A stretch of DNA of 11,196 nt from Syntrophorhabdus sp. (GTDB taxonomy: Bacteria; Desulfobacterota; BSN033; UBA1163), in NCBI GenBank assembly GCA_020724025.1, contig DYHU01000109.1, forward strand, positions 1 to 11,196. The letters are read 5' to 3'. Positions within the stretch are counted from its first letter, which is position 1. Every line of letters starts with the position of its first letter. The position numbers were made by a program, and so were the translations under genes. This document shows positions 2,600-10,422 of this stretch, piece after piece. Under the pieces are notes generated by a model. That model was not told the origin of the DNA. It saw only the letters and a program-made list of their open reading frames with translations, and searched no databases.

Positions 2600-3223
2600 T
2601 CAATGATTACGTTTCTTAGCGCCGAAGTTTATTAGGAATTGTTCCAGATCTTCGTAAGGTTGGAATCCAACAGCCGCATGGTGATCGACCCAAAAGGTTG
2701 GGACTCCTGTGATTCCAAGGGCGCGTGAACGAGACCAGTCGGAATCCACTGCCTCCTTAAAGGTTCTCAATCCAAGAACAGATCTTGCCTCCTTGTCTGA
2801 AAGGCCTATTGATTTCGCCAGATCGACTATTTCATTTACGTTGCCGATATTCTTACCATCGACAAAATAGGCTCGAAAGACAGCTTCGTGAAATTCGTCT
2901 CCCTTTCCCTTCGATTCTGCCCATTTTGCCAATTCCTGAGCAAGACGGCTATTGTAAGTCTTTCTGCGTTCACCAAGGGGCAAGCCTAATTCATCCGCCA
3001 CTTGCTTCAACCGAACCATGATCTTCTTAATATCTATGGGTTGTCCAGCGAAGAGTTCTTCAAGGGTAAGTCCCTCTTCCGGCGTCTCGGGATGAAGAGG
3101 AAAAGCCGTCCAACGAACTTCAATTTCGTAATTCTTTCGCAATTGCTCAATACGCACGGTACTGAAATAGCACCAAGGTCAAACATAATCGGAGAATATC
3201 TCGAAGATCACTGGCTTATTCAT
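2600..3223 (-). CDS. Probable selenoprotein: FrnE-like DsbA-family thiol/selenol oxidoreductase (UPWC)
   Basis: Read with one TGA decoded as selenocysteine, this is a 207-aa DsbA/FrnE-type oxidoreductase (thioredoxin fold with helical insertion), near the usual length. ATG at 3223 has AGGGAG 6 nt upstream. The N-terminus MNKPVIFEIFSDYV is the normal first beta strand of the family; codon 15 (3181-3179) is TGA, followed by PWCYF, so the family CPWC active site becomes U15-P-W-C18. The rest is uninterrupted, with the cis-proline motif GVPTF near P175. A SECIS-like hairpin starts 12 nt after the TGA. No signal peptide is seen, which fits cytoplasmic FrnE proteins rather than periplasmic DsbA. 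Conventional gene calling would start at GTG 3157 and lose the catalytic motif. The alternative is a Cys-to-stop mutation in a young pseudogene, but the exact position, the hairpin and the intact remainder favour recoding. The substrate is unknown. Confidence 0.85.
3146..3166 (-). promoter_or_regulatory. Putative bacterial SECIS element
   Basis: In the mRNA, UUCAGUAC (3166-3159) pairs with GUAUUGAG (3153-3146), giving 8 bp with two G-U pairs and an apical loop CGUGC. The loop begins 21 nt after the TGA and has G at its second position. These values fit the published bacterial SECIS pattern (a short stem inside the coding region, loop about 16-37 nt after UGA, G in the first two loop positions). 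A competing 6-bp hairpin (GGUGCU with AGUACC) overlaps its 5' side. Folding was done by eye. Confidence 0.6.
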
Positions 3224-3296
3224 ATTTTTCTCCCTTTCGGTCTCACTCGACAGAGCCAACTATTTTTTTATGACACCAAATGTTATGATGTCCACT

Positions 3297-3419: not shown

Positions 3420-3454
3420 GTAAAACTTGACTGAAAAATTCAGTCAAGCGTTAC
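3420..3454. repeat. Long perfect palindrome CTTGACTGAA-AAA-TTCAGTCAAG
   Basis: The 10-bp perfect arms 3426-3435 and 3439-3448 are separated by AAA. Beyond a 2x2 mismatch the pairing resumes for 4 bp (GTAA 3420-3423 with TTAC 3451-3454). On the minus strand the stem is followed by TTTT, so it could end transcription coming from the MFS gene. As DNA it could also be a dimeric-protein operator upstream of the FrnE-like gene. Confidence 0.6.
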
Positions 3455-3510
3455 AGTCTTGCTTTGGGCTATTCATCCTTTTTATTATCAATTCTGCACT
3501 CCGAATTCTC

Positions 3511-3559
3511 TCCGCCCCAGAGGGCTCTCCCTCCGGGGCAGAAGCCCCTCTGGGGCGGA
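3511..3559. repeat. GC-rich hairpin joined to repeat copy B
   Basis: TCCGCCCCAGAGGGCT (3511-3526) pairs with 3543-3559 over about 16 bp with a single bulged C. Its right arm forms the first bases of repeat copy B, so hairpin and repeat appear to be one element. Non-coding. Confidence 0.7.
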
Positions 3560-5078: not shown

Positions 5079-6110
5079 TTAGAAAATTTTCAGAATCTCA
5101 TCTTGAGAAAGGGATTTCAGTTCTTTTCGCCTCTTTCCCTCCACTGCCAGGACCCTTGCCGGTCCTTTCTTCACCCTGCCGATAGCGTGGAGAGGGATGG
5201 AGGCTGATCCAAAAGCCTTTTGGAGGGCCGAGAGATGACGAGGAGAGACGGTTAAGAGCAGTGCACCTGATGCGATGACACCCAGAGGGTTTAATCCAAA
5301 TTCATGGCATAGAATTTTCGACTCTTCATAGATGAAGACTTTCTCCAAATCGACTTCAAACTCCTTCTTAGAGGCCATTGCCATCTCGATGATCCCATTG
5401 ATCAGGCCTCCCTCAGTCGGATCGTGCATCGAGTGGATTGTGGCATGACGACAGGCGATCTGAGCGGCCTGGAGCACATCGATCCCCGGATTGAAGATGA
5501 AAGATTTTGCCCTTTTTATTAAGGAAGGGGAGAGACCTTTTGAGAGGAGTTTGGCTTCCGTCTCCCTGGCGATGATTGAGGTCCCTTCAATGCAGACCCC
5601 TTTGATCAGAAGGAGCAGGTCTCCCGCTCTCGCTCCGCTCGTTTTAACCAGATTCTCCTTCCTCACCTCGCCGATCATATGGCCGGAGAGGATGATTCTG
5701 TCCAATCCTGGTGTGATTTCCGTGTGGCCTCCGATGAAAGAAACCTTAAAGCGACGGCAGGCACCGTGGATCTGGCGAAAGACCTTATGGATGGATTTCT
5801 GATCCAATTCTTCATCGGGAAAGAGGAGGGTGGCCAGGAAATATTTTGGGATCGCTCCTCTTGTTGCGATGTCATTGATATTGACCATGACTCCATAATA
5901 TCCGATCTCCTCCGTTGTGAAGGTGATGGGATCTGAGGTCACCACCCAGTAATAATTCAACTCTTTTCCAGGATCGATGACTGCGGCATCTTCACCGATT
6001 TCTGGTCCGATGATGACGCTTGGATCGAGGATGGCGTATTTCGCCAGAACCTTATTCAGGAGACCGATGGGAAGTTTGCCGGATTTCATGGATGGATCCG
6101 TTCGTTTCAA
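5079..6110 (-). CDS. HypE-like AIR-synthase-family protein (PurM-like fold)
   Basis: About 343 aa, with the two-domain PurM/HypE/SelD ATP-binding fold. Visible are the N-terminal glycine/acidic motif IGPEIGEDAAVID, the central SDPITFTTEEIGYYGVMVN-NDIATRGA segment, IGGHTEIT, and the C-domain HDPTEGGLINGIIEMA. Members activate carboxyl or amide oxygens with ATP. True HypE ends in a PRIC-type tail whose cysteine carries the carbamoyl-derived cyanide; this protein ends SQDEILKIF with no cysteine. It also lacks a recognisable SelD-type Cys/Sec loop. So neither hydrogenase maturation nor selenophosphate synthesis can be assigned, despite the nearby selenoprotein. Start choice: the TTG at 6110 has GAGGTG 6 nt upstream. 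A GTG at 6119 overlaps that site, and ATG 6089 (MKSGKLP) has only a weak one, so the N-terminus is uncertain by about 10 residues. It has its own putative promoter. Confidence 0.88.
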   Translation of the reverse strand: MKRTDPSMKSGKLPIGLLNKVLAKYAILDPSVIIGPEIGEDAAVIDPGKELNYYWVVTSDPITFTTEEIGYYGVMVNINDIATRGAIPKYFLATLLFPDEELDQKSIHKVFRQIHGACRRFKVSFIGGHTEITPGLDRIILSGHMIGEVRKENLVKTSGARAGDLLLLIKGVCIEGTSIIARETEAKLLSKGLSPSLIKRAKSFIFNPGIDVLQAAQIACRHATIHSMHDPTEGGLINGIIEMAMASKKEFEVDLEKVFIYEESKILCHEFGLNPLGVIASGALLLTVSPRHLSALQKAFGSASIPLHAIGRVKKGPARVLAVEGKRRKELKSLSQDEILKIF

Positions 6111-6130
6111 ACCGTTCACCTCAGGAGAAA

Positions 6131-6247: not shown

Positions 6248-7360
6248 TTATGCGGCTTGGTCAGGGGGTGGAGTTCCTGGTGGGTTGGGGAGTGTCAGTG
6301 GGCATCTAAGCCAGAAGGCGTTATGGGCAATGAGGGCTGGAGCTACGATACAGAGGTTGAGATAAATGATGAGGATATTGATGTCAGCAGGAAGTTTCGC
6401 GGCCGCTATAGCCTCGGCAGCAGGGCCGAGGATCAATCTTAACACTATGATCCAGATAGCAATAAGGATGCACTGGATGATGAATGCCGCAAAAGCCCTT
6501 TTGGCGAGGGTATATTTCGTAACTCCCCAGAACTGAAGATGCCAGGAGTGGACCAATGGCCAGAAGATGAGGGACGAGCCCACAGCAGCAAAGGAGAAGG
6601 TTGGACTGATACCAAGGGCTAAACTTCCACTCCAGAAGACATACCCCAACAGGTGGGCAAGGATAGTCTGACCAATGGCTGCGCCGGGATGACCCCATTT
6701 AACAAAGGGCGTTCCCTGTGTGGTAAAGACAGGACTGAAGACGAAGAACCAGGCGATGGACCAGACGAAGAATCCGGTTAGCCATTGCACATTTAGAGGG
6801 CCTTTATGATTCATCGGGGTATCGGCAAAGGGTGTTCCATCAAGATTGGTTAAAAAATTCCATATGAGGATGGAAACGACCATTACAATAATGAAACTGA
6901 TAGCCATCGTTCCCCATGGATGGAGTTTACCCTTAAAAGGCCATCCTCCCCAATTCACTCCATAAAGGAGTGTAGCCCAAAACCCAATGACCCCGAACCA
7001 GAGATAAAGCGGGCCTATTATCCATCCGGGATAGATGAATCTCATAAAGAGCAACATGGCAAAAGTGAAGATGGCCCACAGGACTGTCATCCCAACCCCT
7101 GGAATGAGACGGGATTTGGCAGGCGTCCAATTCCCTCCCGGAGGCGCCCAGGGCCAATTGTCACCAAGAAGAACCAGATGCCCCAAGGCAATGAGCATGA
7201 TGAGCGTAGCAGGGATGATCTTCATAACGATGAGTTCGGGAGAGATAGAGTATACGAATAGGAGAATCCCGATGATAGCCAAAACGATAAATTGAATGAG
7301 TCCTCCCAATCTTCCACTTGGACCGATTCCAATTTTTTCTGGTGGTTTTTCATTTCCCAT
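6248..7360 (-). CDS. Polytopic membrane protein of unknown function in the phosphotransferase operon
   Basis: A 370-aa protein with about ten hydrophobic helices, roughly at 20-40, 44-66, 86-108, 112-135, 148-170, 190-212, 228-250, 253-276, 285-310 and 326-350, and hydrophilic proline-rich tails. It is unusually rich in Trp and Gly, with conserved-looking polar residues in membrane segments (GQTILAHLLGYVFW; LVHSWHLQFWG; PALIAHNAFWL). I recognise no transporter family. AAAGGAGG lies 8 nt before the ATG, and the gene starts 38 bp after the subunit-2-like gene, so it is the third gene of the operon. Taking up or exporting the compound that the two soluble subunits phosphorylate is a reasonable guess from position only. 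It takes the place where Thauera has the third, CBS-domain subunit of phenylphosphate synthase, but is unrelated to it. Confidence 0.85.
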   Translation of the reverse strand: MGNEKPPEKIGIGPSGRLGGLIQFIVLAIIGILLFVYSISPELIVMKIIPATLIMLIALGHLVLLGDNWPWAPPGGNWTPAKSRLIPGVGMTVLWAIFTFAMLLFMRFIYPGWIIGPLYLWFGVIGFWATLLYGVNWGGWPFKGKLHPWGTMAISFIIVMVVSILIWNFLTNLDGTPFADTPMNHKGPLNVQWLTGFFVWSIAWFFVFSPVFTTQGTPFVKWGHPGAAIGQTILAHLLGYVFWSGSLALGISPTFSFAAVGSSLIFWPLVHSWHLQFWGVTKYTLAKRAFAAFIIQCILIAIWIIVLRLILGPAAEAIAAAKLPADINILIIYLNLCIVAPALIAHNAFWLRCPLTLPNPPGTPPPDQAA

Positions 7361-7398: not shown

Positions 7399-8463
7399 TC
7401 AGGAATCAATTTTGACGGTTGATAAGGCCTTTTCCATCAGAAGCTCATAGACGCTCTTCTTTCCGAGGACAGGCTCCTTTTTCTTCTGGCTCCACACGGT
7501 TTCCGGCCGGCTCTGGACCATATAGATATTGAAAGGGAAGGGTTTCTGTTTGTCGATGGCCCATTCGATGTCCTGGGGACAGCCGTAATACTCTTCGATC
7601 CTTCTTGCATATCTTGTCAGTTCCAAGACCTCCTGGTCCTCGATACACTGGATCTCCCGGCGGTCGGGAGGGATGTCGGCATGGACGACCTCTCTTCTCT
7701 TAGGATCGAAGATGCATTCCACCCCTTTTAAAGAGATCTCACTCTCTATGCCCTTAGTCACCTTGTCCACGACAAACTTGTCGGGATTGCAAAGTCCGGC
7801 CACGACCGTTTCTCCCAATCCCCAATTGCCTTCGATGACGATCTTGGATGGATCTCCGTTGAGGGGGTTCAGGGTGAACATTACTCCTGCGGCTCTGGCA
7901 TCGACGATCTTCTGGACGCCAACGCTGATCAAAACCTTCTCATGAGGAAATCCCATTTTGACCCTGTAAGATATGGCTCTCGGTGTAAACAGGCTTGACA
8001 TACAGTGTTTAATCTTTTCCAGAACCTCTTCGATTCCCTGCACCCAGAGAAAGGTGTCCTGCTGTCCGGCAAAACTGGCTCCGGGAAGATCCTCGGCCGT
8101 GGCGCTGGAACGGACCGCAACAGGAAGATCAGTCGTATCGAAGACCTGGGACAGGGCCTGATAGTTAGAACCAATCTCTTGTTCCATCTTTTGAGACAAT
8201 GGGGTTTGAGCCATCACCTGGCGGATCACTCCGCTTGCCTCCCCCAGGGAAGCGACGTCCTGAAGATCAATATGCGAAAGGATTTCTTCAATCCTGTCTT
8301 TGAGACTGCCAGTGATAAATTCAAGATAAGCTTCTGTTGTCACGGAAAAACCAGGCGGAACCGGGATGCCGGCCCTGATCAACTCGCCCAGGCTGGCATT
8401 CTTGCCTCCGACCAGAGCAATGGCCTCCTTCCCGGCCCTGTCAAACCATAATGTGTAAGGCAT
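7399..8463 (-). CDS. PEP-synthase N-domain protein; phenylphosphate synthase subunit 2-like
   Basis: A 354-aa stand-alone ATP-binding (ATP-grasp) half of a PEP synthase. Motifs: GGKNASLGEL (19-28), the ATP-site block VAVRSSATAEDLPGASFAGQ (115-134), GVMFTLNP (193-200), EGNWGLGETVVAG (211-223), QDIEWA (297-302) and QSRPETVWS (317-325). It has no phosphohistidine domain and no PEP/pyruvate barrel. Such 40-kDa proteins pair with a separate 70-kDa histidine-domain subunit; in Thauera aromatica the pair converts phenol and ATP to phenylphosphate, AMP and phosphate. Here that partner is the gene just upstream. The start is ATG 8463 (MPYTLWF), with TAGGGAG 6 nt upstream; the frame stays open to 8568, but that part only translates repeat DNA. 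Phenol as substrate is inferred from family resemblance; another alcohol, or a pyruvate-like role, remains possible. Confidence 0.9.
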   Translation of the reverse strand: MPYTLWFDRAGKEAIALVGGKNASLGELIRAGIPVPPGFSVTTEAYLEFITGSLKDRIEEILSHIDLQDVASLGEASGVIRQVMAQTPLSQKMEQEIGSNYQALSQVFDTTDLPVAVRSSATAEDLPGASFAGQQDTFLWVQGIEEVLEKIKHCMSSLFTPRAISYRVKMGFPHEKVLISVGVQKIVDARAAGVMFTLNPLNGDPSKIVIEGNWGLGETVVAGLCNPDKFVVDKVTKGIESEISLKGVECIFDPKRREVVHADIPPDRREIQCIEDQEVLELTRYARRIEEYYGCPQDIEWAIDKQKPFPFNIYMVQSRPETVWSQKKKEPVLGKKSVYELLMEKALSTVKIDS

Positions 8464-8478
8464 TGTAGACTCCCTACT

Positions 8479-8556
8479 TGGAACGTTGGAATAATGGAAT
8501 AATGGGTTGATCCTCTTACCCCCATTATTCCACCATTCCATAATTCCAGTATTCCA
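8479..8556. repeat. Inverted repeat of 8-bp units (TGGAATNN), copy 2
   Basis: Units TGGAACGT, TGGAATAA, TGGAATAA (8479-8502) and the complementary array with CC at 8522, 8530, 8538, 8546 and 8554 show the same 8-bp period as 4964-5072, with a 15-nt loop. It fills most of the 111-bp spacer between the two phosphotransferase subunit genes, so it is transcribed and would fold into a long stem. Confidence 0.85.
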
Positions 8557-8574
8557 GTTGGAGCACAAAGCTCC

Positions 8575-10422
8575 TTAGGCTCGTTTCAATATCTTTACGA
8601 TTCCGGTGTTTCCATCCACTTTCACGGTGTCGCCTGTCTTGAGCACGGAGGTAGCGATTCCTGTACCGGTCACGGATGGGACTCCATACTCCCTGCATAC
8701 GATGGCGGCGTGACTGGTCAGGCCGCCGATGTCTGTGATGGAGGCCTTTATCTTGGTGAAGATAGGCGCCCAGGCAGGGTTCGTGGTCGGGCAAACAAGG
8801 ATATCGCCCTGTTCCACCTTGGTGATCTCCTCGAGAAGTTTGACGACCCTCACCTTTCCCTCAATGACACCCGCAGAGGAGCCAAATCCTTTCAGCTCAG
8901 TGACATCTGCCGGCACAATGGCGGCTCCCTTCATCCATTCCTTCACCCTTTCTGTCGTAATGCCCCAGAGCATGACCGTAAACGGTTCGGCAACCTCTTC
9001 GGGCGGAGTTCCAAGGGCAGGGACAGGGTTCCATTTCTTTGCCGCTTCCAGTATCTTCTTTCTCTTTTCTGCTTTGGCCTGCCAGTAATGAGCCCCGGAA
9101 GGCACGCCTTCGCCCAATGCCCATGTCGTTGCCATGTCTTCCATGAGGGCCGGGACCTCAAACCGGTTAAAGAGGTAGATATCATTGACCTCCTTGAGCA
9201 TCCCGCACTTCACCAAGAGACGGCCAAAGTCCCTCACCTTGTCAAACCATATCGTATGAAACCAGTGTTCCACCCAGAAGAGGTGGTCTTCTGCGTATTT
9301 GTAAATCGTGCGGACCGCCTTGTAAGTATCGTCAAAAGATTTCCTGTCCTCGTCGGTCTTGATGAGTTTTCTGTATTCTTCGGCCAGTTCGGCCCTCGCC
9401 TTGTCAATTGCAGGAAGATCCCTCTCGATCTTCTCTCCCCTTTCGACCCTTTCCACATAGCTCTTCAGATATCCAAAGGGAATTTCCAGTTTGGTGGTCC
9501 AGCTCCCCTCGTAGTGGAACCAGCCGCTGCCGCAGGAGACATAGAACCACGGGTCTTTCGATTTTTCATATTCCACCAACCAGTCATTTCCCTCTGCGGT
9601 CTTTCTGAGGGTTTCTATTTTTTTATCAACAGGCAGATCACTTTTTAAAACCTTTGCCAATTCGGGGACGGCTGCTGCAATGCGGGCGAGCCTGCACAGT
9701 TCTTCTTCGGGCCGGAACATCTGGACATAGGCCCCTGCAACAAGTTTTCCGATGGTGCTTTCACTGGCCCCCGGGAAGAGCTTTCGACAAGTGTCGGTAA
9801 AAAGCAGATAGGCAAGATAGGCCAGATTGAGATACTGAAAATGGTATTGCCACCCTTTGATCATAAGGTTGACCAGCCTGTCCCAGGCATCAATGACTTC
9901 AAAAGAAGTATAATAACCCTTTGGTTCAGGAAGTACTGTATCATCCGGCTCAAATTTCGGGAATTCCTCCGGGACTTTGATGCTCGCCATCTCTTCACCC
10001 AGGGCTCTGAATTTTTTCAACCACGTTCCCCAGAGTTCATCATAGTGGTCAAATACATAAAATACCCTTTTTTGAAAGAGAGCGGCTTTTTCGCCGATGA
10101 TCTCCGGCGGGGGCGGCGCAACCGGCGTGATATACATGTAACAGCCCACCATCCGTTGAGAAATACCCTGGGCAGGCGGGATGCAGAAAACTCTCGTCGT
10201 ATACTGGGAAAGGGAGATCTGCCAGGCCTCATGGAAAATGAGGTCAAGAGGATACATTGCTTCAGGGGCATGGATCTTGTCATGAAACCAGAAATGCTTC
10301 TCTTCCCACTCCTTTCTCTCTTTGCTGAAGATGTAGTAGGGTGGATACATCTCTTCCCACCCCTCCAGTTCTTTCGGATATTTCACCTCTAACGGCATCG
10401 GGAAACCTTTTTGCTCTGCCAT
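8575..10422 (-). CDS. PEP-utilising enzyme; phenylphosphate synthase subunit 1-like
   Basis: A 615-aa protein (about 70 kDa), the size of Thauera phenylphosphate synthase protein 1. The C-terminal 90 residues are a PEP-utilising mobile (swivelling) domain: GDILVCPTTNPAWAPIF, then DIGGLTSHAAIVCREYG with the phosphorylatable His at 571, then GVPSVTGTG. The first 480 residues are the long alpha-helical region special to this subfamily (FWFHDKIHAPEAMYPLD near 43-60, LSQYTTRVF near 71-79), probably the acceptor-substrate part. The phosphoryl group would pass from ATP on the subunit-2-like protein to His571 and then to the acceptor. AGGAGG lies 7 nt before ATG 10422. It is the first gene of the operon, behind a strong promoter and a leader of about 217 nt. 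Phenol is the best guess for substrate; no phenylphosphate carboxylase genes or third subunit are in the window. Confidence 0.9.
   Translation of the reverse strand: MAEQKGFPMPLEVKYPKELEGWEEMYPPYYIFSKERKEWEEKHFWFHDKIHAPEAMYPLDLIFHEAWQISLSQYTTRVFCIPPAQGISQRMVGCYMYITPVAPPPPEIIGEKAALFQKRVFYVFDHYDELWGTWLKKFRALGEEMASIKVPEEFPKFEPDDTVLPEPKGYYTSFEVIDAWDRLVNLMIKGWQYHFQYLNLAYLAYLLFTDTCRKLFPGASESTIGKLVAGAYVQMFRPEEELCRLARIAAAVPELAKVLKSDLPVDKKIETLRKTAEGNDWLVEYEKSKDPWFYVSCGSGWFHYEGSWTTKLEIPFGYLKSYVERVERGEKIERDLPAIDKARAELAEEYRKLIKTDEDRKSFDDTYKAVRTIYKYAEDHLFWVEHWFHTIWFDKVRDFGRLLVKCGMLKEVNDIYLFNRFEVPALMEDMATTWALGEGVPSGAHYWQAKAEKRKKILEAAKKWNPVPALGTPPEEVAEPFTVMLWGITTERVKEWMKGAAIVPADVTELKGFGSSAGVIEGKVRVVKLLEEITKVEQGDILVCPTTNPAWAPIFTKIKASITDIGGLTSHAAIVCREYGVPSVTGTGIATSVLKTGDTVKVDGNTGIVKILKRA

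Follow-up and report, generated by a model that had tools for sequence, protein, structure and literature searches.

Selenocysteine (Sec)-containing proteins of the DsbA/FrnE type have been known since 2005. Zhang, Fomenko and Gladyshev (2005) placed nine DsbA-like selenoproteins with a UXXC motif under COG2761, and the same paper describes the bacterial SECIS element as having a guanosine in a small apical loop (PMC1088965). A 2026 review names a 'DsbA-like protein form 1' with PF01323 (PMC13188914), and DsbA 1, 2 and 3 are listed in a 2008 GOS paper (PMC2398784). 'FrnE (DsbA)' is named in SelenoDB 2.0 for animals (PMC3965025), a Sec-FrnE is named in the green algae Mamiellophyceae and M. viride (PMC6627142), and a Sec-containing DsbA has been reported in tunicates and amphioxus (PMC2874816). 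The FrnE of D. radiodurans, DR_0659, belongs to COG2761 (PMC1978522). This protein reduces insulin and isomerizes disulfides, and recharging of its active site has been proposed as the task of a C-terminal CXXXXC; the motif exists in many but not all FrnE proteins, being absent from those of S. roseofulvus and D. maricopensis (PMC8945050).

Because DR_0659 is assigned to COG2761, the gene described here, whose product carries Sec in a UPWC motif, can be tied to the COG2761 selenoproteins of 2005; in the literature searched, a selenoprotein is paired with COG2761 in the 2005 paper alone. An earlier note on this DNA had left it uncertain whether a Sec form of FrnE had been described. Such forms already had been, in the 2005 paper under COG2761, in SelenoDB 2.0 and in green algae.

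Reading frame, family and fold

The gene is located on the minus strand at 2600–3223 of the window (the whole stretch of 11,196 nucleotides that was analysed), and all features below are on the same strand. The ATG (3221–3223) is preceded, across a six-base spacer, by a Shine-Dalgarno-like AAGGGAG (3230–3236) recognized by eye. The 14 codons from the ATG, MNKPVIFEIFSDYV, are followed by an in-frame TGA (3179–3181), by PWCYF, and by an open frame extending to the terminal TGA (2600–2602), with an in-frame TAG as the fourth codon beyond. With the internal TGA read as Sec, the product contains 207 residues, including one Sec (U15) and one Cys, C18 of the U-P-W-C motif (3170–3172). The start, the Shine-Dalgarno sequence, the 14 codons, the TGA and PWCYF all agree with the description in the earlier note, and the frame past PWCYF is likewise open; only its codon count needs a trivial correction, from 188 to 187, with 192 residues downstream of U15. 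The same note held that a standard annotation would begin at GTG 3157 and miss the catalytic centre, and a conventional ORF of 185 residues does begin at this GTG (3155–3157), at the loop of the hairpin described below.

The product matches the Pfam DSBA family (PF01323) over residues 8–197 with an E-value of 8.6e-36 and 124 bits, compared with a curated cut-off of 25.6. Among solved structures, D. radiodurans FrnE is the closest by sequence (4.6e-23). An alignment-based structure model reached a pLDDT of 82 and a pTM of 0.78 and was used in place of a single-sequence model, which was dropped at a pLDDT of 47. The top five PDB fold matches of the model are all entries of D. radiodurans FrnE (5co3, 5cp1, 5cnw, 5xwh and 5coh), with TM-scores by query length of 0.70–0.74, and the next match is SCO1869 of S. 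coelicolor. In the model, U15 is situated just before the helix of residues 17–31, and is aligned with the first Cys of the CP(W/F)C motif in FrnE. Furthermore, Val174 and Pro175 (2699–2704) are invariant in the homologue alignment and correspond to the cis-proline loop of the DsbA/thioredoxin fold. By sequence comparison and by the predicted structure, the protein is an FrnE-type DsbA, in agreement with the assignment of the earlier note.

Among the NCBIfam models, none reaches its cut-off. The nearest is the selenoprotein model NF041057, the Rcas_1661-family thioredoxin-like (seleno)lipoprotein (DsbG-like), which matches weakly over residues 96–196; at 33.6 bits against a cut-off of 190, membership in this family was ruled out. 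The C-terminal CXXXXC was found in none of the 101 UPWC rows (last 60 residues), and its absence does not disqualify the protein as an FrnE, since the FrnE proteins of S. roseofulvus and D. maricopensis also lack it. Inspection of the N-terminus by eye revealed no signal peptide, and the protein is probably located in the cytoplasm, as judged from its sequence.

Kappa GST and HCCA isomerase share this fold and are also present among the fold matches, which would suit a protein that receives Sec for a non-disulfide role, such as that of a glutathione-using enzyme. However, UPWC retains the two-residue redox motif, and FrnE is nearer to the protein than kappa GST or HCCA isomerase by both sequence and fold, making such a role unlikely. 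The product is very probably an FrnE-type DsbA-family oxidoreductase of 207 residues with a predicted redox role, in which UGA15 is decoded as Sec via a hairpin.

The TGA codon and the hairpin beyond it

A genome scan yielded 238 confirmed relatives, of which the best 80 loci were kept. One of these (L032) begins past the TGA and was therefore not counted; in the remaining 79 loci, all of which cover the position, the codon is TGA in every case, and the tblastn alignments cross it. The TGA lies within a conserved ORF, and its column holds TGC or TGT in 15 more distant homologues, so that the alignment proposed in the earlier note recovered both Cys in the U15 column and further homologues with TGA. 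In the codon alignment, whose 79 rows are the window and 78 loci, every row has P, W, C and Y after the TGA and Ser-Asp at −4/−3. Upstream of the TGA, the protein sequence is kept across the rows and the codons vary.

According to the record titles, the 80 loci derive mostly from Deltaproteobacteria or Thermodesulfobacteriota and their orders, together with some Nitrospirota, one Acidobacteria and one Abyssobacteria bin. An isolate is present among the carriers, Desulfosarcina widdelii PP31 (L073), with a complete genome; this strain is tabulated in the deep-Sep paper, apparently with 38 selenoprotein genes (PMC12013277). In the class of the nearest carrier, a homologue exists in 8 of 23 genomes and carries TGA in all eight, seven by the count of one TGA and one (G041) with the TGA readable beside a run of N. 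This run, at 1478–1500 of locus L089, breaks the gene just past the TGA context. In an even draw of 395 genomes from the phylum, with a homologue threshold of E ≤ 1e-15, 84 genomes possess a homologue: 67 have TGA (the codon itself was read in 55, and in 12 it is deduced from the number of in-frame stops alone), 15 have Cys, one has Ser (G075), and one is uncovered at this position (G244). One of the 67 TGA genomes, G303, contains an additional TAA inside the match.

Database gene calls look different. Among the 120 homologues listed, 117 have 180–196 residues and cover 86–89% of the query, lengths that are expected if these homologues begin past the TGA, and all short homologues that were aligned do begin there. 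Such calls, below 200 residues in 117 of 120, agree with the TGA being a true stop and the real protein being the 185 residues from GTG 3157. However, this start drops the first strand and both active-site residues, the residues encoded ahead of the TGA are conserved in 79 rows although their codons vary, and the Cys homologues read straight through the TGA column, all of which makes a true stop highly improbable. With the TGA read as Sec, most of the listed homologues stand in the databases without their catalytic centre, and their function is therefore invisible to routine annotation.

The hairpin is located within the coding sequence at 3147–3165, with an apical loop at 3158–3154. Synonymous identity was calculated for codons −13 to +30 in 79 rows, with the expectation taken from codon usage in the downstream parts of these genes. 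From +5 to +10, the identity is 1.00, 0.79, 0.83, 0.85, 1.00 and 0.92, compared with expected values of 0.51, 0.35, 0.34, 0.27, 0.19 and 0.41, respectively. Smaller excesses, of 0.12 to 0.27, exist at −7, −4, −1, +1, +11, +16, +24 and +26. RNAalifold gives one consensus hairpin, spanning codons +5 to +11. The six pairs of this hairpin are formed in 99.8% of 444 cells (74 distinct rows of the 80), one row breaking a pair, and the G of the small apical loop is invariant in 80 of 80 rows, corresponding to a SECIS-like hairpin just past the TGA.

Two of the six pairs have changed on both sides: column pair 21/31 from UA to CG in seven rows, and 19/33 from AU to GC in three rows. None of 500 shuffles matches the paired percentage, the number of two-sided-changed cells or the covariation score, whereas the count of pairs with a two-sided change is matched by 24 of 500 and that of further pair types by 283 of 500. 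A slide of +3 gives a covariation score of 0.112 compared with 0.088 for the hairpin, yet only 52.5% of its cells are paired. In the window copy, the 19-mer forms seven pairs at −4.9 kcal/mol. When the 51 bases from the UGA are folded from the window alone, the best fold is a different hairpin, and 81 of 200 shuffles fold equally well (z −0.24). The case for the SECIS element thus rests on the alignment, because folding of the single window sequence carries no signal.

Selenocysteine machinery in the carriers

For selA, selB and tRNA-Sec, 24 carrier genomes from the 80 loci were tested together with 14 control genomes. All 24 carriers score above the cut-offs for selA and for selB, compared with 2 of 14 controls for selB and 1 of 14 for selA. 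A tRNA-Sec above 60 bits is present in 18 of 24 carriers; 20 of 24 pass the Rfam cut-off, but so do 5 of 14 controls. A pattern search added one further candidate, in G013. ARAGORN, applied to seven stretches (six of them around selB) for the six carriers without a clear Rfam match, found no tRNA-Sec. Five carriers, G005 (L005), G010 (L010), G018 (L044), G019 (L062) and G023 (L048), possess selA, selB and the UPWC gene, but Rfam, the pattern search and ARAGORN near selB all failed to give a clear tRNA-Sec, which may reflect divergent tRNAs or gaps in the assemblies. Two of these loci, L044 and L062, come from chromosome records.

In G001 and G002, the two nearest carriers (92% and 90% over the protein, respectively), selA, selB and tRNA-Sec all occur. 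A second protein of the window (6248–7360) is 91% identical in both genomes, and the window organism is therefore probably a relative of them, on this comparison. A protein with an AIR-synthase fold is encoded at 5079–6119 on the minus strand, scoring 94.7 bits for HypE, 93.0 for ThiL and 70.8 for SelD; all are below the NCBIfam cut-offs, and its identity as SelD is not confirmed by this score.

Across the phylum sample, selB is present in 353 of 395 genomes, and being so common its presence alone says little. It occurs in 63 of 67 TGA carriers compared with 12 of 15 Cys carriers (Fisher p = 0.11, some matches being partial), and as a discriminator between the two groups it was set aside as weak, being near universal in the phylum. 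Either selA or selB is found in 66 of 67 TGA carriers compared with 12 of 15 Cys carriers (Fisher p = 0.018, for a comparison picked post hoc). Among the four TGA carriers that lack selB, selA is absent from G231 and present in the other three; the three Cys carriers without selB also lack selA.

Reassignment of the TGA to Trp, in the manner of code 4, would account for the W found at this column in three other database copies (P0008, P0019 and P0109). These three are located on contigs shorter than 1.2 kb, for which reason the W probably stems from a gene call with TGA as Trp. Moreover, in the loci whose DNA was read the codon at this column is TGA, TGC, TGT or once TCC and never TGG, the window gene itself terminates in TGA, and selA and selB accompany the gene in the 24 carriers tested, leaving reassignment scarcely credible. 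Any single TGA could be a sequencing error or the nonsense mutation of a decayed gene, but the same TGA in 79 of 79 covering loci from many assemblies, including the complete D. widdelii PP31 genome, reduces this explanation to a negligible one. The constant codon, the Cys that occupies its column in other homologues, the two-sided pair changes in the hairpin and the occurrence of selA, selB and tRNA-Sec in close carriers strongly support Sec at the TGA, as the earlier note proposed. That note had named an absence of TGA from all homologues as evidence against it, which the 79 covering loci contradict.

Predicted mechanism, branch history and relation to known systems

The Sec codon, the SECIS element, the fold, the position of the active site and the machinery in the carriers have been established by computation. 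In the proposed mechanism, UGA15 would be decoded by SelB and Sec-tRNA, guided by the hairpin 14–32 bases downstream with its invariant loop G. The selenolate of U15 would then attack a substrate disulfide, and C18 would resolve the intermediate. The recharging tail of D. radiodurans FrnE, its C-terminal CXXXXC, is missing from the UPWC branch. An outside reductant is therefore likely, and the reducing power would probably come from another thiol system, for example thioredoxin. The direction of the reaction (reductase or isomerase), the substrate, the partner and the location are the predicted elements of this account.

No conserved gene neighbourhood was found, the eight neighbours in the window each being matched in at most 4 of 80 loci (flanks up to 6 kb), and among the 80 loci there is no recurring neighbour that would name a redox partner. 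Elsewhere on the minus strand of the window, two adjoining genes at 7399–10422 are possibly a split dikinase-like pair: one resembles the N-terminal half of PEP synthase, and the other passes the NF006153 cut-off and has a PEP-utilising part at its C-terminus. In addition, a match to Rfam PK-repBA exists at 3441–3558 on the minus strand (30.5 bits, E 0.0016), below the gathering score of 45.

In a tree of 73 of the 132 distinct rows, rooted at the midpoint, the 42 UPWC rows form one branch (98/96), within which two CPFC rows, L122 and L123, are nested. These two belong to a supported subgroup of eight (99/98), while their exact position inside it is poorly supported (81/28), and the branch on which they sit is long (0.96). 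Altogether, 101 distinct UPWC Sec rows were collected, compared with the two Cys rows nested in the branch. The genomes of L122 and L123 retain selB, and the two genes have lost the hairpin sequence. The pair likely represents a Sec-to-Cys change, and the simplest reading of the tree is that Sec would be ancestral in the UPWC branch with one change to Cys. The two Cys members offer a natural Sec-to-Cys comparison. Another branch, with several switches, contains the Sec rows with UPFC or UPYC together with most of the remaining Cys rows. In these Sec rows (L140–L155), the hairpin differs in sequence, and its loop is equally far from the UGA (RNAalifold consensus, 12 of 16 rows).

A wider reading is put forward tentatively. 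The UPWC proteins may constitute a bacterial branch of their own, with Sec as its ancestral and nearly obligatory state, beside a UPFC/UPYC branch with a different hairpin, Sec having been gained or kept separately in the FrnE lineages; the UPWC protein might then be a cytosolic selenenylsulfide enzyme, widespread among syntrophs and anaerobic sulfur bacteria and left without its active site by gene calling. The hairpin and the 80-row alignment suffice for a Sec-aware model and for the choice of a cultured carrier.

Compared with known systems, the gene resembles the DsbA-like family of 2005 in its Pfam domain, in Sec as the first residue of UXXC, in the stem-loop just past the UGA and in its Cys homologues, a likeness drawn from the description in that paper. 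With the Sec-FrnE of green algae and SelenoDB 2.0, which is eukaryotic, it shares a Sec protein named FrnE, and the two are likened by name as those sources give it. The selenoprotein DsbA of tunicates and amphioxus likewise has Sec in place of the upstream Cys, but it is an animal protein with a eukaryotic SECIS, and is likened by the description available. D. radiodurans FrnE DR_0659 (5cnw, 5cp1, 5xwh) shares the DsbA fold, the CP(W/F)C column and probably also its predicted cytoplasmic location; unlike the UPWC proteins, it has Cys in place of Sec, is longer and possesses the C-terminal CXXXXC recharging tail. The known list of selenoprotein kinds is unchanged, and what is new here is a large bacterial branch, almost all of it with Sec, that is shortened by standard gene calling.
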